In this document: positions 6,797 to 36,771 of the stretch, piece by piece
Layout: each line of letters starts with the position of its first letter
Numbering within the stretch: position 1 is the stretch's first letter
Origin: Prevotellaceae bacterium UBA7028
Lineage (GTDB): Bacteria; Bacteroidota; Bacteroidia; Bacteroidales; Bacteroidaceae
DNA length: 37,134 nt
NCBI GenBank assembly: GCA_002494215.1
Contig: DLBF01000123.1
Coordinates: 1 to 37,134 of the forward strand
Direction: 5' to 3'
The notes under the pieces: generated by a model
The model's database searches: none
Told to the model about the DNA's origin: nothing
The model's input: only the letters and a program-made list of their open reading frames with translations
Program-made: the position numbers and the translations under genes

Positions 6797-8466
6797 CAGA
6801 ACTTATAGCTAAGCGCCAGATTCACCGTATTGGGATTGTGTTCGCGCACATAAATACTTCCCGTATAGCCACTCTGAGGAGCTCCCTGAGTGAGTTCTAT
6901 CACGGGAAGTTTTTTGTACTCATAACCCAGGGTGGCAGTAAGCTTGTCATTCAGGAAAGAACGCTCCAGATTGCCGCCAAAGACGTAGTTGAGCCCCTCA
7001 TGCGAATAGACATCTACGGTATTGCCCTTTGAGATCATGGCATCAATACCTAATTTGAAGCCTAAGGGCAGCTGCTGCTCCCATCCGGCACGTCCGGTAA
7101 AGCCCCAGTTGGGATTCCGCAGATTGATGGCATAGGCAATACGCTCGTCCCACAGGGCTGTGAAGGCGGCTCTGAGTTTGGTTCCCTCTACGGGACGCCA
7201 AAGCACCTCGGGGGTAATCTCAATAGCCTTACGTACACCCTCGTTTCCCCAGGTAGAGAAACGGACATTCTCTATTTCATACCAGATGGCATTGAAGCCG
7301 TCAGTAACATTGGTATGTGCAACGGTGGCCGTAAAATCCACCTGCTTAGTCTTCAGCTGATAAGCCAGGGCCATACGGTTAATGTGGATGCCCTCCAGTT
7401 CCTCGTTACCGAAGTCCAGAGTGTAGGGGCCCTTTACCTTATCGTCATACAGGTAATGCAGGGTAGGACGTACAATGCGCATGGCATAGCTGGCCGTAAG
7501 GGTGTTCTGGGGATTCAGGTGATAGGCAAAGCGTGCCTGCGGGATGACATCATGCAGGTTCTTCTTGTTCATGCGGCTATAGTTATACTCCACCCGGGCA
7601 TCCGCCTCTATGGCATTGATTTTAAGCCCGTAACCGGCATAGGCGCCAACTGTGTTGGTACGGTGGCGGAACTCGCTGTCATTATATACAAAGTCATCCA
7701 GCAACTGTCCGTCAAGGGAGTTGATGAAGTTATTGATGTACCTGACACCCACGTTGAGGTTACCTACGAAAAGGGGACGTTTCCAGTCTAACAGGAGTTC
7801 GTGCCTGTGGATGAATATATCAGAAGTAATTATGTTCCGGGTGTACATATCAAGACCGAAGCCTGTTGCCCCGGTAATCAGCTGCAGGCTGTTGTCATCA
7901 TCCAAATCAGTAGAATAATTATACTGGAATAGCACGCTCTCACCCTTCAGAGCGGTCTTATGCAGATAAGAGGCCTGTACATTCACTTCGTCACGGTAAA
8001 GGGTGGGTGAACTGAGCAGGGACTGCACGCTGGACAGGAGTGTTCCATCAGGAGCATACAGGAACTCGGTACGCTCGCCGGTAAAACGTCTGTGGGTGTG
8101 CACACCGTCCACACTGGCCTGGAAGATATTGCGGTCATCCAGCCTGTACTGCACATCCACGCCGTAACCTAACTTGTAACCTTTCTGCTGCTTCTCCTGC
8201 TCTTGGGTGTAATGGTTACCCGAGCTGGCATATATGAAGTCAAGGCTGGTAAGCTCGCCTGAGTTATAAGGGGTAATACCCTTGATGTTCAGGTAAGGCT
8301 TAATAGTAAACTTTTCAGCATCTATCTTCAGATTGACGCCTGCCATATAAGGGGCTGTCTCGCCGTATCCTGCACCGAGGGTAGCTTCACCCTCAACTTT
8401 TGTCTGAGCCGTCATCCCCAAGGCAAAAGGGAATGCAAGCAAACAAATTAATATCTTTTTCATCAT
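6796..8466 (-). CDS. Outer-membrane beta-barrel protein, TonB-receptor-like barrel without a plug
   Basis: This 556-residue protein has a signal peptide (cleavage after GMTAQ) and then long alternating amphipathic strands through to a terminal aromatic (NLALSYKF), typical of a Bam-assembled barrel. The C-terminal half resembles the barrel of outer-membrane protein beta-barrel family 3 and TonB-dependent receptors (NPQNTLTASYAMRIVRPTLHYL). I see no plug domain, TonB box or carboxypeptidase-like repeat, so it is shorter than true TonB receptors. It could be a pore, an adhesin or a receptor remnant; its ligand cannot be read from the sequence. Confidence 0.75.
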   Translation of the reverse strand: MMKKILICLLAFPFALGMTAQTKVEGEATLGAGYGETAPYMAGVNLKIDAEKFTIKPYLNIKGITPYNSGELTSLDFIYASSGNHYTQEQEKQQKGYKLGYGVDVQYRLDDRNIFQASVDGVHTHRRFTGERTEFLYAPDGTLLSSVQSLLSSPTLYRDEVNVQASYLHKTALKGESVLFQYNYSTDLDDDNSLQLITGATGFGLDMYTRNIITSDIFIHRHELLLDWKRPLFVGNLNVGVRYINNFINSLDGQLLDDFVYNDSEFRHRTNTVGAYAGYGLKINAIEADARVEYNYSRMNKKNLHDVIPQARFAYHLNPQNTLTASYAMRIVRPTLHYLYDDKVKGPYTLDFGNEELEGIHINRMALAYQLKTKQVDFTATVAHTNVTDGFNAIWYEIENVRFSTWGNEGVRKAIEITPEVLWRPVEGTKLRAAFTALWDERIAYAINLRNPNWGFTGRAGWEQQLPLGFKLGIDAMISKGNTVDVYSHEGLNYVFGGNLERSFLNDKLTATLGYEYKKLPVIELTQGAPQSGYTGSIYVREHNPNTVNLALSYKF

Positions 8467-12294: not shown

Positions 12295-12330
12295 CAATTT
12301 TTGATTTTTGAATTTATCAATTTTGAATTA
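12295..12330. repeat. 7-bp array at the 3' end of the beta-helix gene
   Basis: Units of AATTTTT/GATTTTT/GAATTTA/TCAATTT/TGAATTA type follow at 7-bp spacing. The last unit contains the stop codon of the beta-helix gene on the minus strand. Confidence 0.65.
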
Positions 12331-15300
12331 AAAGAGGACCTTGTGTCCGTTAATGATATTTACGCCCTTCTGCAGCTTAGACAGCTTCTGGCCAGCGAGG
12401 TTATAAATTGCTCCCTCGCCTTCGGAGAGGGCTGGGGTGAGGCTCTTAATTGCTGTCTCGCTCTCGCCATTGAAGAAGAAGGCCTTGACACCTGCGTTAG
12501 AAGGCTGATAGTAAGCCTTGCCAGCAGCAATAGTGGTTCCAGTCTTTGCAAGATAGAAGCCAACTTCCTTATCCGCGGGCTTAGCCAAAATATACATTGT
12601 GCCGTCAGCCTCTGTAGCATCAGCTGTACCCTTCAGGTCATTAGCAATGTTGATGGCAGGTACATCTTTAGCAAACTTGTTGTAATAAGTACCCTTTAGA
12701 ATAACAGGAGTGCCTGCAGGAATATTCTCGATGGCTGTAAGGTCAAGCCATGTGTTGTTCAGGACAGCAACATTAGCCTCAACATCGCCGTTCAGTACAT
12801 AACCAGTAGTAGCGTCGAAGAGAGTTGCATAGCCTGCATCGCCAACGTAGCTGACAGGTGCCTCATTGAGAGGAGATGGGTATTCGTCGATGCCGATAAG
12901 CTGCTTGAAGCCCAAGATGTATGCCACCTTACCATTGGTGAGGTCTGCTTTTGTCAAATCTTCTCTTATGCCACGATTCTCACCGGAATCTGTTCCATCC
13001 ATATTAGTATCACTCAGGTCAATAACATTCTTCCATGTACCTTGGAAGCGTCCCATATTGCCTCCCTTATGACCCGTGATGGTACCGAGGTTCAGGAAAT
13101 TCTCGACAGAACCCTTCTCCTGATAGCAGAAGAGAGCACCAACAAATGGATCCTGGTGAGTAGATGTGATGTTACCAGTGTTGACTACATTATGAATGTA
13201 ATAATTGGCTTTATCTCCACTCTCGCCACCTACAATACCAGCTGCATCCTGACCACTGACAGTAACGTTAGCTTCGTTCACAACATTCTCGATAGTTATG
13301 GTAGCTCCAGCCTTGTAGTTCTGAGAAGCTCCAGCTACACCACCACTCTTATTGCTACCAATGATAGAGCAAGACTTATCAATGATGAGATTCTTGATAG
13401 TTGTGTTATCGTTACCCTGCAGCCAACCAAAGAAACCTTGAGCCTCAGAAGTTGGACGATTGATAATCATGTTCTTGATTCGATAGCCCTGACCGTCAAA
13501 CACGCCCTTGAACTTACTGCCAGTTGTGGGACCAATGGGATTATGAAGGTTCTCTATGTTCAGGAAATCAATATCCTGCGTCAGCTTGGCATAGAATGCA
13601 GCACCACCAGCACCCTTAACAGCGTTAGACAACCACTCTACGTTTCCAGCATTTGCCAGCAAATAGTAGTCACCATCCTTTTGGGGTTCCTGGAACTGGG
13701 TGTAGCAGACATCGCACATACCAATCTTAGCATTTATGTTATGGTCGAGCTGAATAGTCTCGCCGCTTTCATTATTATAATTAAGACCACCTACTGCAAC
13801 ACCTGCACAATTGATAGTTCCTGCCTGATAAACCTGCTTGGATGTTGTACCATAAACAGGCATTGCATCTGTACCAAGAGTCTGAGTATAGACAATAGAT
13901 GTTTGGTCGCCGTTCAAGAGGTAACACAGTTCACCGCTAGAGATAGGATCGTCTGTATTGATAACGGCTACCTTACCCTGGTTACCAGCGTTTGTGGTGC
14001 AAAGGTCAATAATATTTCGTAGAACAATATTGCTGTTGCGGCGAATCAGATTGTAGCCGTTGCCATCGACACCAGTTACCTCACCTATGTTCCAGCAACC
14101 CTCCACATCAACTTCGCCATTGACATTACGCTGACCAGTCCATGCGCAGATAGCAGCACTCTCACCACCATTGCCAACAATGGTACCCTTGTTCCAGAGG
14201 TTGTAAAGCTTCAAGGCTACATTGGTAGAGGCAACGCAACCAAGAATACCAGCAGCATTCTTACCTGAGGTGGTTACGGCGGCTTCGTTACCACAGTTGC
14301 GAATAATAACAGTTGCGCCCGTATTAACAGAATTAACACGGCCTACAACACCTGCCACGAAATTCTTGTCATGCGTTACAGAGCAACTTTCATCGATGAT
14401 AAGGTTCTCAATGACAACCTCATTGTTAGTAGTACCATTTGAATCTGTACCGCCACCACGAACAGAACCGAAGAAGCCCTGACCATCATTGTCACGATCA
14501 GCGAGAGAATTTGCTGTGGTCAAAACCATACCCTTAATACGGTGTCCCTGACCATCGAAATGACCAAAGTACTTCTGTGTATTAGTACCAATAGGCATGT
14601 GTGCATCAGCAACACCACCAAAGTCAATGTCAGCATCCAACTTGACCTTCATAGCACCATGACCAATCTTAACCATTGCAGAGAACCACTCAACCTGAGC
14701 AGCCGTGCTGAGATGATAGAAACCATCCTCTTCTGGAGTCATAAACGCCTCGTTGGGAGCACCACAGTAGGTACAAAGACCAGTTTCATCACTGTAAGTA
14801 TGAGGAGGAATAACCTTGCCAGACTCCTCATTGCTATAGGAAACACCATCCTTGGGAGTACCGTCACAATTGTAGGCAGCTACCTCGTATACTGCTTTAC
14901 CAGGAATGGGCAGAGGAATAGAGTTAGGATCAGAGAGATCCTGAGTGAAAGGATGTGCATTAGGATTGGCATTGGGAGCCAAGTCAGAACGCAAGGCAGT
15001 ATTAAGCAGATAGCAGATCTCACCGCTATGCAGAGGGTCAGCAGTCTTATAGGTAGGATGCTCGCCTTGGAAGTTGCTGGCACTGTGGAAAGTATCGTAG
15101 CAGTTAGCAATAGAACGGTTAGCGCCGCGGAAGAGTTGGCTGCCACCATCCAAAACACTAATTTCTGCAATGTTCAAACAGTTCCACATCTTGGCATTAC
15201 CACCTGCAGATCTGTTCCATCCGCAGAAAGCAGAACCTTTGTTAACTGCTGTAACAGTACCTGCATTCACACAGTTTTCCATATCAAAATAGGGATACTG

Positions 15301-15900
15301 GTCGGCACCGGCACCAATCATACCTGCAGCACCAGAAGTTGTGGTAAGCGTTGCAAAGCTGACGCAGTTCAGAATCTCTAAGCCATCGGGAGATTCTGCG
15401 GTGTAAGTATTTGTTTGAATGAGACCAATAATAGAACCTACACGGTTCTTACCTCTGATTGAACAAGTAGAATCCATGATAATGTTCTTGATCTTGGCAT
15501 TACCGCGAACAAAACCAAAGAGACCGAGAGTCTCGTCATCAGGACGATCAATCACTAAGTTACTGATTGTGTGAAACTGACCATCAAATTTACCAGAAAA
15601 CTTGTAGGTATCGATAACCGCTCCACTCTCGTTTGTATAACGACCAATAGGAGAATGGTCAATACCAGCCATGTCAATGTTAGCTGTCAACACAGCTTGT
15701 GCTGTAAGCTTAGCGTCTTTGTCAGGATCATCATTACCAGTCACAGAATTAACATACTCGGCAAACCACTCCAGTTCAGAAGCTGTACCAATTTGGTAAA
15801 CACCATCTACCTGCGCCGGTTCATCCCACGCACGGGCAGAAAAACCTGTCATCCATGCTAAGGCCAAGAATGCCAGGCTAAAGAGATAGTTTTTTTTCAT
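12328..15900 (-). CDS. Large secreted three-module beta-helix (GLUG-like) surface protein
   Basis: This 1190-residue protein has a signal peptide (cleavage after GFSARA). Three homologous modules begin near residues 32, 390 and 755; each starts with a DG.Y.L.TA..VEWF motif. Each continues with D.GG, PIG, F.G.FDGQGH.I.NM, G.FG...., I.NLIID..CSI and successive I.N..N.G.V rungs, as in GLUG and right-handed beta-helix proteins. A beta-domain at about 1010-1140 (GYATLFDATTGYVLNG) precedes a tail (IYNLAGQKL..KGVNIINGHKVLF). It is probably exported to the cell surface as an adhesin or glycan-binding protein; no catalytic site is seen. A GC hairpin in the gene encodes TPALSEGEG just before the tail. 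Confidence 0.8.
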   Translation of the reverse strand: MKKNYLFSLAFLALAWMTGFSARAWDEPAQVDGVYQIGTASELEWFAEYVNSVTGNDDPDKDAKLTAQAVLTANIDMAGIDHSPIGRYTNESGAVIDTYKFSGKFDGQFHTISNLVIDRPDDETLGLFGFVRGNAKIKNIIMDSTCSIRGKNRVGSIIGLIQTNTYTAESPDGLEILNCVSFATLTTTSGAAGMIGAGADQYPYFDMENCVNAGTVTAVNKGSAFCGWNRSAGGNAKMWNCLNIAEISVLDGGSQLFRGANRSIANCYDTFHSASNFQGEHPTYKTADPLHSGEICYLLNTALRSDLAPNANPNAHPFTQDLSDPNSIPLPIPGKAVYEVAAYNCDGTPKDGVSYSNEESGKVIPPHTYSDETGLCTYCGAPNEAFMTPEEDGFYHLSTAAQVEWFSAMVKIGHGAMKVKLDADIDFGGVADAHMPIGTNTQKYFGHFDGQGHRIKGMVLTTANSLADRDNDGQGFFGSVRGGGTDSNGTTNNEVVIENLIIDESCSVTHDKNFVAGVVGRVNSVNTGATVIIRNCGNEAAVTTSGKNAAGILGCVASTNVALKLYNLWNKGTIVGNGGESAAICAWTGQRNVNGEVDVEGCWNIGEVTGVDGNGYNLIRRNSNIVLRNIIDLCTTNAGNQGKVAVINTDDPISSGELCYLLNGDQTSIVYTQTLGTDAMPVYGTTSKQVYQAGTINCAGVAVGGLNYNNESGETIQLDHNINAKIGMCDVCYTQFQEPQKDGDYYLLANAGNVEWLSNAVKGAGGAAFYAKLTQDIDFLNIENLHNPIGPTTGSKFKGVFDGQGYRIKNMIINRPTSEAQGFFGWLQGNDNTTIKNLIIDKSCSIIGSNKSGGVAGASQNYKAGATITIENVVNEANVTVSGQDAAGIVGGESGDKANYYIHNVVNTGNITSTHQDPFVGALFCYQEKGSVENFLNLGTITGHKGGNMGRFQGTWKNVIDLSDTNMDGTDSGENRGIREDLTKADLTNGKVAYILGFKQLIGIDEYPSPLNEAPVSYVGDAGYATLFDATTGYVLNGDVEANVAVLNNTWLDLTAIENIPAGTPVILKGTYYNKFAKDVPAINIANDLKGTADATEADGTMYILAKPADKEVGFYLAKTGTTIAAGKAYYQPSNAGVKAFFFNGESETAIKSLTPALSEGEGAIYNLAGQKLSKLQKGVNIINGHKVLF
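12413..12431. repeat. In-frame GC-rich hairpin at the body/tail junction of the beta-helix gene
   Basis: CCCTCGCC (12413-12420), loop TTC, GGAGAGGG (12424-12431) form a stem with one mismatch. On the coding strand it is translated as part of TPALSEGEG. It sits immediately before the C-terminal tail. Confidence 0.7.
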
Positions 15901-23131: not shown

Positions 23132-23162
23132 ATATAATGTACGCGCGTACGAGGCAAAATTA
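23132..23162 (-). promoter_or_regulatory. Probable phospholipase promoter with the 15-bp element shared with rep
   Basis: On the minus strand TAATTTTG (23155-23162) fits the -7 consensus and overlaps the rep stop codon. Just downstream, 23132-23146 is ATATAATGTACGCGC on the plus strand, identical to 24359-24373 in the rep promoter. Here the element extends into the palindrome GTACGCGCGTAC. Confidence 0.5.
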
Positions 23163-24344
23163 TTTGTACGAAGGATTCTCCACCTTATAGGACAATGTTA
23201 CAGGCCCAAAAACCTCCTTCAGTGTATCAAAGAATTCTACTCCACACTTCTCTACCTGCTCGCTTACAAACTGATTGGGTGTTATAAGTGTGATGTGTGA
23301 ATCCGTGATACTACCTACTCTACAGTAAACAAAGTATGTGCTGAAGAACGGTTCCCCTACCCTTTCCTGTACCAATTGCATGAACTGGAACCACTTTGTC
23401 TGCTGTTCTTCGGTCAGATGATTAACCTCGGAATTGGGAGATTTATCCTGTTCCTGAACATTATTATCTGGGATAGCAGGATTCAGAAGGAAGCGAACAC
23501 TGTCCGGATTACCCCTCTTTTTCCCATTATGATATACAGGTTCGTACTCGAAGGTGAACTCAATTTCGCCTCTTTTGGCCAATTTTTCCATCTCGCGTTG
23601 CGCCGGTTTCAGCACATCACGATGGAAAACAGCCCACGTAGAACTCTTATCTTGCAAAACTTTGGTTCTATCTTTGCTGTAAACCAGCACTCCGAGGAAC
23701 TCTTTTAGGGCTTCGTAACCAAGCGTACACATGCGCATTTTCTTCCAGGCGCTCAGATAAATATACAAACGAGGCGTTCTGGGACTGCGACAAAGCTTAA
23801 CAATACCACCCAAATGTTCTACATAAGCACCACTTTTATTGAAGACAAGGTCGGCAACAGAGGCATTCATATCAATCTTTATAATACCGCTTCTTCGTTC
23901 CTGACCAGTGGTTGTGGTATAGGTTGGCACATCCACATCAGTAAAAATAACACTGGTTTTGGTTCTTTTCTGTCCATCAACGTCTGTATAATTGATGGTT
24001 GTATCCAGTTTTGTGAGCGCTTTGCATGCCTCATGAACGGCTGCATACTCCTTTGTTTTTACTCCCAGAGACTGCAAAGGAACCTCGAAAGTGATCTTTC
24101 CCTTTGATAATTCTTCCTCCGAAAAGAGCGGTCCCATCTTTCCTTCAACGAATCTTTCGTTGATTCTGGTCTGCATAGTTGCCGCTATGGCCACAAGAAC
24201 ATTGGTCTGAATCAGCGAGAAATCTCCTCTTATCTGTGAATAAACGAGGGGATTTTTTATGTAGTCCGAGTTTTCCAGCTGCTGAATAAGCTCGTTTTTC
24301 GGACTTACCATCTGCAACTTTCCGTTTGTTTTCTTTGTAGCCAT
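23160..24344 (-). CDS. Replication initiator, Rep_3/RepB winged-helix family, with DnaA domain I-like C-terminus
   Basis: This 394-residue protein belongs to the Rep_3 family of iteron-binding initiators: two winged-helix domains at about 20-280, with YSQIRGDFSLIQTNVLVAIAATMQ at the start, TPRLYIYLSAWKK and WAVFHRDVLKPAQREMEKLAKRGEIEFTFEY. After an acidic linker, residues 310-394 look like DnaA domain I (WFQFMQLVQERVGEPFFSTYF, ITLITPNQFVSEQV, TLKEVFGPVTLSYKVE). F359 aligns with the helicase-contacting F46 of E. coli DnaA. The gene reads away from an iteron array directly upstream, and a TTTG-N18-TATCTTTG promoter precedes it. The fusion suggests direct DnaB loading, which is inference. Confidence 0.9.
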   Translation of the reverse strand: MATKKTNGKLQMVSPKNELIQQLENSDYIKNPLVYSQIRGDFSLIQTNVLVAIAATMQTRINERFVEGKMGPLFSEEELSKGKITFEVPLQSLGVKTKEYAAVHEACKALTKLDTTINYTDVDGQKRTKTSVIFTDVDVPTYTTTTGQERRSGIIKIDMNASVADLVFNKSGAYVEHLGGIVKLCRSPRTPRLYIYLSAWKKMRMCTLGYEALKEFLGVLVYSKDRTKVLQDKSSTWAVFHRDVLKPAQREMEKLAKRGEIEFTFEYEPVYHNGKKRGNPDSVRFLLNPAIPDNNVQEQDKSPNSEVNHLTEEQQTKWFQFMQLVQERVGEPFFSTYFVYCRVGSITDSHITLITPNQFVSEQVEKCGVEFFDTLKEVFGPVTLSYKVENPSYK

Positions 24345-24443: not shown

Positions 24444-24570
24444 GATTACCTCCTTCTCAACAGGAAGAAACCATCTCCTCAGGAACAGATAACTTACCCC
24501 TCAAGAAGAGAAAACCAGGTTCTCAAAACATGATTACTTAAACCTCAAATAAAGGTTACTTTTTCCTCCA
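24444..24570 (+). repeat. Iteron cluster A: six 17-bp copies at exact 22-bp spacing
   Basis: Copies start at 24444, 24466, 24488, 24510, 24532 and 24554, each 22 bp apart. They are the more degenerate set; the best conserved part is TTACyy near the start and CCTCAA at the end. The cluster nearest rep may serve both origin function and repression. Confidence 0.85.
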
Positions 24571-24855
24571 TTTTCAATAATCGATTTCCCAAATTTCGTT
24601 TTCCTTTTTTCGCCAACGGGCACATATTTTTTTCCAGGCAGGGAAAAATTATTCTCCTCCTGGAGAAGAAAATCCCCCCTACCGAGGAGCAAAAATTCTC
24701 CAACTAAAGTCCTGAAAAGAAAAACAATAACTGAAGATTTTTCAGCCATTTAGCTCCCCCATTTCTTCCATTAAGACCGGATATCGTTACTATGATTACG
24801 GGCAAAAACAGACATCGGCTCCCCTACCCCCTCAGTTTAGGGAAAAAGGCGGAAA

Positions 24856-24918
24856 GGTTACTTTCTCCGCAATTCAGAAGTTACCTTCTCCTCAACTCAA
24901 AAGTAACCAAGACCTCAA
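24856..24918 (+). repeat. Iteron cluster B: three copies at 23-bp spacing
   Basis: Copies start at 24856 (GGTTACTTTCTCCGCAA), 24879 (AGTTACCTTCTCCTCAA) and 24902 (AGTAACCAAGACCTCAA). Confidence 0.88.
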
Positions 24919-25112
24919 TTTGAAATATATATTCTGCTGATAGAAATACTTTAATGCAAAACAAGAGCAAATATTCCACAAATAATTGTATTACAAAAGA
25001 ATAAGATTGCAAAAAAGTTGAAATTTTCCCTAAAAAACGGAATATTAATAATGAGTTGTCTTAAAGCAAACGTTTAAATAAAAGCACCAGAAAACGCTAA
25101 AAATGCCTATAA

Positions 25113-25217
25113 GGTTACCTTCTCCTCAACAAAAAGTTACTTTCTCCGCAAAAAAAGGTTCCATTTTTCTCATTTTAAAGTTGGTTTTTCCTCAAAAGAA
25201 GATTACCTTCTCCGCAA
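25113..25217 (+). repeat. Iteron cluster C: five copies at exact 22-bp spacing
   Basis: Copies start at 25113, 25135, 25157, 25179 and 25201. The first, GGTTACCTTCTCCTCAA, is a perfect consensus; the third and fourth are degenerate. The AT-rich segment follows immediately. Confidence 0.92.
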
Positions 25218-25229
25218 TTCGTTTTTTGG

Positions 25230-25384
25230 AAAACACTGGGTTTCAATAAGTTAGGGCTAACACATATATTAATATGCCTAATATGTTATATTAATAAAAG
25301 AAGTAATTTTATTAGGGATATTAACTATATTATCTATATTAGGGATTTGTATGTTGTTGAAAAACAACGTTTTGCGCAGGTTTC
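25230..25384. other. AT-rich segment, candidate unwinding element
   Basis: A strongly AT-rich stretch lies between the direct and inverted iteron clusters. It contains two copies of TATTAGGGAT and a small hairpin at about 25353-25370 (GTTGTT..AACAAC). The position suits the site of strand opening. Confidence 0.6.
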
Positions 25385-25497
25385 TTGTGGAGAACGTAAC
25401 CTTAAATTGAGGAGAAGGTTACCTTGGATTGCAATAAACCCCGCCTTTTGTTGAGGAGAAGGTTACTTTCCCCCACTTTATTGAGGAGAAAGTAACC
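25385..25497 (-). repeat. Iteron cluster D: four inverted copies
   Basis: Inverted iterons occupy 25385-25401, 25407-25423, 25451-25467 and 25481-25497. The first two are 22 bp apart; the third is 44 bp on, leaving one degenerate slot. The last lies just before the stop codon of the ParB-like gene. Confidence 0.88.
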
Positions 25498-25507
25498 TTT
25501 ATGGGTA

Positions 25508-25897
25508 TTATAAATGTGTATCGCGTACATATTGTCTGATTAGCTCAGCTCCTTCTGGCAAGATCTGCTCACCAGCCATATATCGTTTCAGAAATTCGTT
25601 CAGGGCTGTGCGTACCACATCCTGCCTGTCAACCTTACATTGCCAGTGTATTTCCTCCACAGCTCTGTTGTGTCGCTCCTCGAAGAAGATAAGCTTACCG
25701 TTCTGTCGAGGGATGATACTGTTGTCTTTCTTGCGTCCAGGTTTCTTGTATGTGGGCGCTGCGACTTCAGATGTTACATTCTCCGCAATTGGAGCAGGCG
25801 GAGTGCTGGTTGGAACCTTTTCGTACAGTTCTTCTGTTTTTGTTTTCATTCCGTCAGCGATAGCGCTGATGGGTGTTAGTTGTTTGATCTTTGGCAT
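25508..25897 (-). CDS. Small ribbon-helix-helix ParB-like partition protein
   Basis: This 129-residue protein has a flexible, Pro/Thr-rich N-terminal half with a basic KKPGRKKDN patch (51-59). The C-terminal half (about 67-107, KLIFFEERHNRAVEEIHWQCKVDRQDVVRTALNEFLKRYM) reads as a strand then two helices, the pattern of an RHH DNA-binding fold. It follows ParA by 14 bp on the same strand, the usual place for the centromere-binding partner of a small ParA. I do not recognise the exact family; it resembles ParG-like or DUF3408-like adaptors in outline only. Confidence 0.7.
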   Translation of the reverse strand: MPKIKQLTPISAIADGMKTKTEELYEKVPTSTPPAPIAENVTSEVAAPTYKKPGRKKDNSIIPRQNGKLIFFEERHNRAVEEIHWQCKVDRQDVVRTALNEFLKRYMAGEQILPEGAELIRQYVRDTHL

Positions 25898-25911: not shown

Positions 25912-26757
25912 CTATTCTTTTTCTTGTTCATTTATGAATGATAAATATGCTTCGCTTGCTTTCTTGTACCATGCAGCGGGTGTCCACTTCTTGTTGCGTG
26001 TACCCTTACCTGTTATCTGCTCGGCCAGACGCATATAGTCGTCTGCAGCTGTGCAGCTTGGAGCGTACTCGAACAGACTCATCTGTTCCTTGGGTGCCTC
26101 GTTGCATTTTGCACACTTACGGATGGGTACAGGGAACACTGGTGTGTTGGGCTGTGAGCGGAAGAACTCCTGCACTTCCTTACCCATCTTCGTTTTCTCG
26201 AACTGAGTCAGCAGATAGCCCATCAGCTCGATATTCTTTCCCATCATCTTGTTTACTTCCTCCACGATGGTCCTTACGGCGTCTTTTCCTTGTACTGAGT
26301 ACAGGTCTGTTCTTACAGGCACGATAACACCGTCAGAGGCTGCAATGGCATTCTTGTTCAGGATGCTGTTACAGCCAGGTGCACAATCTATAAGAATGTA
26401 GTCGTACATGTCTTTCAGAGCGTTCAGTCTGATCGTCAGATAATTCTCGCGATAAACCTTGTCTGCCAGCCATGTATTCAGCTCGTCTATGCGAATGCTG
26501 CTTGGAATGTAATCCATGCCCTTGTAGCGCTCGTATACAGGCGGAGCAATGGTGTCGTCCTTCAGCCAGTCGTACAACGTGGCCACGCCTACTGTGTAGC
26601 TCGACCGGTCTATCGTTATGGTCATGTTACATTGTTTATCTGTGTCCACCAGCAGAACGCGCTTTCCCAGCAGCCAAAGGGCTGTTCCCAGGTTGATGGT
26701 GGTGGTGGTTTTTGCTACCCCACCCTTGTCGTTGATAATAGAAATTACTTTAGCCAT
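25912..26757 (-). CDS. parA: ParA-family partition ATPase
   Basis: This 281-residue cytoplasmic protein has a deviant Walker A motif NDKGGVAKTTTT, with signature lysines K11 and K16; Ala replaces the usual Gly before K16. Walker A' is LLVDTDKQCNMT and Walker B ILIDCAPGCNS. It lacks an N-terminal helix-turn-helix, so it is a short ParA (MinD/Soj-like). ParA moves replicon copies apart on the nucleoid with its ParB partner. It heads the operon with the RHH protein and lies next to the iteron origin, with an AT-rich repeat array upstream. Confidence 0.95.
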   Translation of the reverse strand: MAKVISIINDKGGVAKTTTTINLGTALWLLGKRVLLVDTDKQCNMTITIDRSSYTVGVATLYDWLKDDTIAPPVYERYKGMDYIPSSIRIDELNTWLADKVYRENYLTIRLNALKDMYDYILIDCAPGCNSILNKNAIAASDGVIVPVRTDLYSVQGKDAVRTIVEEVNKMMGKNIELMGYLLTQFEKTKMGKEVQEFFRSQPNTPVFPVPIRKCAKCNEAPKEQMSLFEYAPSCTAADDYMRLAEQITGKGTRNKKWTPAAWYKKASEAYLSFINEQEKE

Positions 26758-36068: not shown

Positions 36069-36771
36069 TAGCGCCCTTTAACACCGCTATCTCGCGCTCA
36101 AGCGAGGCTATGCGAGCTTTCAGGGCAGCAATCTCTTGTTCTTGCCGGGCTATGATTTGCTTCTGCGTGCCTCGCATGTCCAGGCGGGCGGCCGTCATGC
36201 GTTCACGCACACCGCCCTCTTCCACGAATTCGCGGTCACGCTTTTCCATGAAAGTTGACATGGCCTTGTCCACCATATGGCAGAGGCTGATAGCGGTATT
36301 TGCCATTTCCTCATCGGTCCATTTGGTAAAGAATGGCTCATAGTCCCTTAGGTTATTGTGCGTGCGGCAATACGCCAAAAGCTTGTTATAGCGCCCGTGC
36401 AGCAGCTCCGTCTTCGACCATTCATTCAGTCCATGCTGCTTCAGATAGTCGTGGTAGTCTTCCAGCAGTTCCTGGTTGCTGCCTTTGGCTATGCCCAACA
36501 ATTTTATTTCCGTCTCAAACGAGGTTTGTCCGTCGGTGAGACCTTCGGCTATGTTTTGTTTTATGCTGCGAGCAGCCTGCACCATCTGGTCAACGGTGCG
36601 GTCACCGTATTTGGGCAAAAAGCGCTCGCAGAATACCTTGGTGAGTTGCACCAGCACATCACTCTTGCGGTAGAAGTGCAGCTCGGTATATACCGTTGCT
36701 TTTCGCATGATGCTGGGCGTGCCGTCGTCATATCGTTTCAGATTGATATTCTTGGGGGTAAGCATGATCAT
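36055..36771 (-). CDS. Four-helix-bundle protein with C-terminal suffix and coiled coil
   Basis: This 238-residue protein contains DVLVQLTKVFCERFLPKYGDRTVDQMVQAARSIKQNIAEG and LLGIAKGSNQELLEDYHDYL, matching the four-helix-bundle family with a suffix domain, relatives of the S23/IVS proteins. A coiled coil (about 195-232, QEQEIAALKARIASLEREIAVLK) ends the protein, suggesting oligomers. It is the second member of this superfamily within 1.5 kb, and like the first its 3' end is encoded by a short tandem array. A TAACTTTG box lies 18 bp upstream. Function is unknown. Confidence 0.85.
   Translation of the reverse strand: MIMLTPKNINLKRYDDGTPSIMRKATVYTELHFYRKSDVLVQLTKVFCERFLPKYGDRTVDQMVQAARSIKQNIAEGLTDGQTSFETEIKLLGIAKGSNQELLEDYHDYLKQHGLNEWSKTELLHGRYNKLLAYCRTHNNLRDYEPFFTKWTDEEMANTAISLCHMVDKAMSTFMEKRDREFVEEGGVRERMTAARLDMRGTQKQIIARQEQEIAALKARIASLEREIAVLKGARNSR

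Follow-up and report, generated by a model that had tools for sequence, protein, structure and literature searches.

A replication initiator (Rep) gene on the minus strand of contig DLBF01000123.1 (Prevotellaceae bacterium UBA7028, assembly GCA_002494215.1) raises the question of whether a plasmid initiator of the Rep_3 family can carry domain I of the chromosomal initiator DnaA and, if so, what that domain would do at the origin. We analyzed the first 37,134 nucleotides of the contig, hereafter the window, and found support for a DnaA domain I at the C-terminus of Rep, on a Rep_3 body. We consider it somewhat better than an even chance that Rep is the initiator of an iteron replicon whose domain I tail docks the replicative helicase or its loader. 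The parts of the gene are as follows.

23160..24344, minus strand: replication initiator (Rep) gene, an open reading frame of 394 amino acids with an ATG start
23754..24236, minus strand: first winged-helix domain (WH1, Rep3_N), residues 37–197; Pfam PF01051, 20.7 bits, below the cut-off of 22.4
23490..23669, minus strand: second winged-helix domain (WH2, Rep3_C), residues 226–285; Pfam PF21205, 18.1 bits, below the cut-off of 21.1
23406..23474, minus strand: fast-changing linker, residues 291–313, recognised from model confidence and nonsynonymous differences
23181..23411, minus strand: DnaA domain I, residues 312–388
23268..23270, minus strand: codon of F359, which alignments place at E. coli DnaA F46 and B. 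subtilis F49

The initial annotation had proposed a DnaA domain I-like C-terminus at residues 310–394 and assigned it to 23160..23414; in the open reading frame these residues and the stop codon span bases 23160–23417, so that the interval was right to one codon, and the motifs it named were present (W318, FFSTYF at 333–338, ITLITPNQFVSEQV at 351–364, and F359). Pfam DnaA_N (PF11638) matched residues 316–376 with 26.7 bits, above the cut-off of 24.6 (E = 4.4e-6), and the isolated 90-residue C-terminal piece with E = 2.8e-7. Scanned on their own, the C-terminal ~90 residues matched DnaA_N in 23 of 24 related proteins (E ≤ 1), as did 16 of 24 full-length homologues (E ≤ 0.1). A PDB search with the single sequence retrieved B. 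subtilis DnaA at E = 0.02 and 0.54 only; with a 24-row profile, four DnaA sequences topped the list (E = 1e-8 to 0.005), and E. coli F46 was aligned in the F359 column. We further compared an alignment of 24 Rep tails (A3) with one of nine DnaA domain I sequences from relatives (A4, covering 9 of their 14 DnaA genes), and the profile–profile match reached a probability of 98.4 with E = 5.4e-15 over 82 columns. The fold predicted for the domain was α-α-β-β-α-α-β, that of DnaA domain I, and in the fold comparison two DnaA domain I structures ranked above every other row. We looked for the opposite outcome, namely the absence of a significant profile match or a fold unlike DnaA domain I, and neither occurred. 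These profile, profile–profile and fold results, together with the family evidence given below, support the proposed fusion of Rep_3 and DnaA domain I.

The Rep_3 body itself was assigned despite its sub-cut-off scores, because Rep3_C matched 24 of 24 and Rep3_N 22 of 24 family members (Pfam, E ≤ 0.1), and because RepE chains were the top two Foldseek matches of the whole-Rep model (2z9o at E = 1.9e-4, the next at E = 5.7e-4). Judged from these profiles, the body consists of predicted WH1 and WH2 domains, as expected of Rep_3. Between body and tail, the predicted local distance difference test score (pLDDT) of the model fell below 50 over residues 295–308, and the proportion of nonsynonymous differences (pN) in the linker was 0.09–0.39, compared with 0.003–0.032 in residues 30–290 (window Rep against each of its seven near relatives, L001–L007). 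The NCBIfam profile TIGR00362 was aligned to Rep over its first 55 positions only.

Conservation within the tail was examined in 24 domains. P356, V360, F379 and G380 were invariant, position 337 was aromatic in all 24, and E362 and E365 were nearly invariant. The aromatic residue at the F46 position was Phe in 21 domains and Tyr in three, and the alignments bear out the earlier equation of F359 with this position, which in E. coli contacts the helicase. In one genome (G001), the host DnaA (L061) has Trp there and the Rep (L001) has Phe. We mapped the B. subtilis DnaD-contact set (K17, S20, S23, F49, A50, D52, W53, E55, H60; PMC6393240) onto the alignment, and these nine positions had a mean entropy of 0.69, compared with 1.65 for the whole domain; roughly one random set in 10,000 scored as low. 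This result supports a partner face at the equivalent positions of Rep, but does not prove it, because the entropy test ignores burial. For the window Rep and L001, the nonsynonymous and synonymous substitution rates of the domain were dN = 0.071 and dS = 0.85 (dN/dS ~0.08; dS is saturated or nearly so for most other pairs). Domain I is thus under purifying selection and the linker is loose. Separately, L002 and L004 are otherwise ~98% identical over 11.7 kilobases (kb), yet a 139-bp segment (7020–7158) inside the domain I coding part holds 29 differences, with three residue changes, and the remaining rep holds two; this looks like a short recombination tract sparing the protein.

To see how far the arrangement extends, we scanned contigs for Rep relatives using two motifs conserved in its body (relatives without those motifs fall outside the count) and obtained 43 loci, of which 42 were titled Prevotellaceae, Bacteroidaceae or Bacteroidales and one Clostridia. 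Two forms of Rep were observed: a short one of ~390 residues, as in the window, and a long one of ~490 residues with an added stretch before the domain. A long-form locus was also present in six of the seven genomes behind L001–L007, as matched by accession prefix (L022, L024, L028–L030, L033), and the occurrence of both forms on separate contigs suggests two secondary replicons per genome. In a family survey of 30 Rep loci, representing 30 different genomes of 301 and taken from a larger set of Rep-like matches, 21 carried the domain according to A3 and 13 according to the host-DnaA profile A4 (E < 1e-3). The tails of eight of these loci (L081–L085, L087–L089) look the same as A3 rows, and their A3 scores are therefore no independent evidence; six others (L093–L098) count as carriers under A3 only; their tails are weak candidates, since an alignment of five of them (A6: L093–L096, L098) gave a probability of 69 to A3 and 1.6 to A4. 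The initial annotation had also stated that Rep_3 proteins normally lack such a domain. This fits seven comparator Reps of named Bacteroidota plasmids or large replicons (L044–L050: P. nigrescens, three Segatella, Prevotella sp. E2-28, pBF9343 and pBACSA01), none of which matched A3 or A4 significantly, but not the present lineage, in which the domain is common. By these counts, the arrangement appears to be frequent among Bacteroidaceae/Prevotellaceae of the gut and rumen.

In a tree of 43 domains, a weak branch (81/73) set off 27 of the 28 Bacteroidota Rep tails, and the tail of P0037 was placed apart from them, with the other plasmid initiators; the tree may reflect one fusion or several. 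The P0037 tail matched 38 plasmid records, of which seven form the sample examined here; one of these, from Endomicrobium (L140), had no Pfam match at E ≤ 0.5. No match was found in the phage records searched. The three Segatella Reps (L045–L047) were considered as diverged carriers, which was not supported (hhalign probability 3.0; Pfam); their last ~75 residues form a conserved stretch of no recognised family that is not detectably DnaA domain I. An apparently separate domain I gene next to dnaA (G201, L146) turned out to be a local duplication, probably of the assembly. The stretch added in the long form (e.g. ~310–400 of P0120) resembles by eye the C-termini of two Reps without domain I (L044, L049).

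The region upstream of rep contains the following features.

24445..25496, both orientations: iteron array with core TGAGGAGAAGGTTAC, many copies at 22 bp spacing
25224..25373: AT-rich-looking stretch (by eye) flanked by inverted iteron blocks; the repeat TATTAGGGAT occurs in it twice, at 25310 and 25337
25508..25897, minus strand: gene of a 129-residue protein of no recognised family, beside ParA, with a conserved place in relatives
25912..26757, minus strand: ParA-type partition ATPase of 281 residues (Pfam AAA_31 9.4e-41, CbiA 3e-19)

On the minus strand the order is thus rep, 1.16 kb of non-coding DNA, the 129-residue gene and parA. Sixteen iteron-like sites (≤4 mismatches) were counted upstream of rep, compared with 0.2 in mononucleotide shuffles, and 12–15 sites lie in a similar layout in each of L001–L007; an iteron array therefore adjoins the gene, as in other Rep_3 replicons. 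The stretch at 25224..25373 is a candidate unwinding region.

How might such a protein work? By analogy with RepE-like initiators, WH1 and WH2 would bind the 22-bp-spaced iterons upstream of rep and open an AT-rich stretch, the fast-changing linker would hold out domain I, and with several Rep molecules on the iterons, copies of domain I would be displayed as an array. The α2/α3 face of these copies would then dock the helicase or a loading factor (DnaB, perhaps with DciA, which was found in nine of nine genomes searched), and Rep would in effect carry its own copy of the DnaA docking arm. In E. coli this face of domain I binds DnaB via E21 and F46 (PMC5448010), and a patch overlapping it is where DnaD binds in B. 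subtilis (PMC6393240); in addition, TrfA-44 of RK2, the longer form of an iteron plasmid initiator, loads the helicase itself in Pseudomonas (PMC4980987). Helicase docking by Rep appears likely because the F46 position is kept and TrfA-44 offers a precedent. DnaA probably uses domain I to call in the copying machinery, and a replicon with its own docking domain may recruit that machinery by itself; independence of the replicon from host DnaA, which the initial annotation had suggested, is possible.

Several observations weigh against this explanation. The other E. coli DnaB contact, E21, corresponds by alignment count to F333 in Rep rather than to Glu, and the position of E. coli W50 corresponds to Q363. 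However, the E21 position is Ser23 in B. subtilis and, by eye, Glu in none of the 14 DnaA proteins of relatives, and therefore Glu at this position does not define the family. Conservation of the DDBH1 patch (T26, W27, F49) was not significant (entropy 1.23, p = 0.17), and the entropy test of the DnaD patch pools buried and exposed residues, with F379 and G380 invariant outside the patch. Nine of the 30 surveyed loci passed neither A3 nor A4 (E < 1e-3), three of them being 387-residue proteins like the P. nigrescens Rep (by eye), and P0038–P0040, P0121, P0122 and P0125 also appeared by eye to lack the domain; the domain is accordingly not required in all relatives.

The main rival to helicase docking is a pairing of the Rep tail with the corresponding domain of host DnaA. 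Rep would then recruit or sense DnaA rather than take its place, and the replicon would be tied more closely, not less, to chromosome initiation. Domain I of E. coli dimerises via W6 and its neighbours (PMC5448010), the W6 position is W318 in Rep and Trp, Tyr or Phe in 20, three and one of the 24 domains, and the Rep proteins of many E. coli theta plasmids bring DnaA to the origin (PMC5703833). However, the residues mapped from the E. coli dimer patch showed no special conservation (mean entropy 1.48 against 1.65, p = 0.28), whereas those of the partner face are conserved, and 10 of 11 upstream regions contained no exact TTATCCACA, a DnaA box that is unvalidated for these hosts. We regard this explanation as unlikely, although a serious competitor. 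The box count was also tried as a test of DnaA independence and proved uninformative, as the dnaA loci of these genomes show no enrichment of the canonical box either: exact TTATCCACA was absent from 14 of 14 dnaA stretches, and paired TTATMCACA sites from all nine genomes.

It is less probable still that the tail is a dock for a DiaA-, HobA- or SirA-like host factor that times the secondary replicon with the cell cycle. Residues of the same domain I patch are used by DiaA, Hda and YfdR in E. coli (PMC5448010), HobA and SirA bind domain I (PMC6393240), and the two best fold matches of the Rep domain are the complexes with SirA and HobA. No such regulator turned up here, though no search was aimed at them, and the presence of the domain in many but not all relatives gives no preference over helicase docking. 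Two further explanations are very improbable. A different KH-like fold that has only its shape in common with DnaA domain I, for instance a DciA-type module, was rejected on the profile evidence, even though VcDciA and a DciA DUF721 domain were among the Foldseek matches of both models and VcDciA ranked third for the isolated domain (E = 8.5e-3 against 1.7e-3 for 4tps). A decaying fusion without function might account for the higher pN of the domain relative to the winged helices (0.068 against 0.003, window Rep and L001), but it sits poorly with the low dN/dS and with the open frame of the domain in L001–L007 (7/7) and in diverged members.

We then compared Rep with known systems. It resembles RepE-type Rep_3 initiators (PF01051/PF21205) in its two winged-helix domains, iteron origin and nearby partition gene, and differs from them in the added C-terminal DnaA domain I. 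With chromosomal DnaA it shares the domain I profile (PF11638), the predicted fold and the α3 F46/F49 position; however, its domain is C-terminal on a Rep_3 body, and Pfam gave no match to the AAA+ domain III or the DnaA-box-binding domain IV within the 394 residues. Similar in architecture are two Rubrobacter plasmid initiators (R. tropicus L144 and R. radiotolerans L143), which combine an RPA/Rep_3/TrfA-like body with a C-terminal DnaA_N, at 402–460 of 483 residues in L144 and just below the cut-off in L143 (23.9 against 24.6), although they belong to Actinomycetota and their bodies match RPA better than Rep_3. A plasmid of R. marinus (L141) encodes an RPA-type initiator (621–1535) next to a gene for a 146-residue DnaA_N protein (1600–2040), as if the fusion of R. 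tropicus were present there in split form. The founding paper on the DnaA-like replicons of Rhodobacterales is reportedly Petersen 2011 (Molecular Biology and Evolution). Such replicons are an established type in Rhodobacterales. The initiator of pMaD5 (Marinovum algicola, Rhodobacterales), the one protein examined, also has a C-terminal DnaA_N (residues 165–222 of 235), but is short and shows a weak, sub-cut-off helix-turn-helix match instead of a Rep_3 body. In the Pseudosulfitobacter initiator of plasmid pDSM107133_i, which is listed as RepA_a (PMC9025767), DnaA_N lies at the N-terminus.

The examples from Rubrobacter and Rhodobacterales point to a wider use of this device. One tentative generalization, which we hold to be possible but doubtful, is that DnaA domain I is a portable adaptor gained more than once by unrelated initiators of plasmids and secondary chromosomes, each thereby acquiring a helicase-docking arm and freed from host DnaA. 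It would cover Rep_3 in Bacteroidota (C-terminus), RPA/TrfA-like initiators in Actinomycetota (C-terminus, or a separate neighbouring gene in R. marinus) and initiators in Alphaproteobacteria (either end), and, if true, would make DnaA-independent secondary chromosomes a class of their own in Bacteroidaceae/Prevotellaceae. A domain-I-bearing initiator offers a direct explanation, open to testing, of how helicase is recruited to an iteron origin, and the small Rep/ori pair would make a clean tool, as its docking arm can be removed or mutated with host DnaA untouched. We found no description of a Rep_3 protein with DnaA_N in Bacteroidota in the literature searched, including the available portions of PMC4980987, PMC6393240, PMC5448010, PMC5703833, PMC9025767, PMC6052148 and PMC12456017. 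Within this literature, neither the Rep_3 version of Bacteroidota nor its spread is described; the presence of DnaA_N on plasmid initiators is already known. A literature search combining Prevotella, second chromosome and replication initiator yielded no paper, and a survey of chromids, in the portion available, does not treat initiation of Bacteroidota secondary chromosomes; their replication start seems little studied.

The surroundings of rep bear on the kind of replicon involved. The order DnaJ-like gene–parA–129-residue gene–ori–rep–F5/8-type gene, with glycosidase genes around it, was kept in all seven close relatives. The 129-residue protein was 88–96% identical and in the same place in these relatives, had no Pfam or NCBIfam match, and is perhaps the partner of ParA. 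At more distant loci, L008 and L011 showed rep alone and L010 showed rep, parA and the 129-residue gene. Among four long contigs, the cumulative GC-skew minimum lay within ~2.2 kb of the ori in three (G001C10, G005C16 and G007C69) but not in G002C13, and the sharpest 10-kb skew switch coincided with the ori in G007C69 only. In the window, the minimum was at 36520 and the sharpest, though weak, 10-kb switch at 25000; in a 20-kb stretch of G004 the minimum lay away from the ori. One contig of the close relatives with the kept gene order carries a tRNA-Thr. These results fit, but do not prove, a secondary chromosome that is inherited vertically and on which this origin works. Most likely the replicon is of the iteron type, carries ParA and is either a secondary chromosome (chromid) or a large plasmid, in an uncultured Prevotellaceae-like bacterium of the rumen; the origin may instead be integrated in the main chromosome, since no closed replicon is among the sequences seen.

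Three minor observations were made along the way. A 65%-identical Rep (L009) lies on a 3.3-kb, perhaps mis-binned contig of a Clostridia-labelled metagenome-assembled genome. An open reading frame of 1190 residues in the window (12328–15900), which has no Pfam match at E ≤ 0.001, is 81% identical in G001. Finally, a 103-kb record labelled plasmid 11 of Phocaeicola massiliensis (L139, OY725985.1) contains a dnaA-like open reading frame of 470 residues; the record is an unusual plasmid or else chromosomal DNA under a wrong label.
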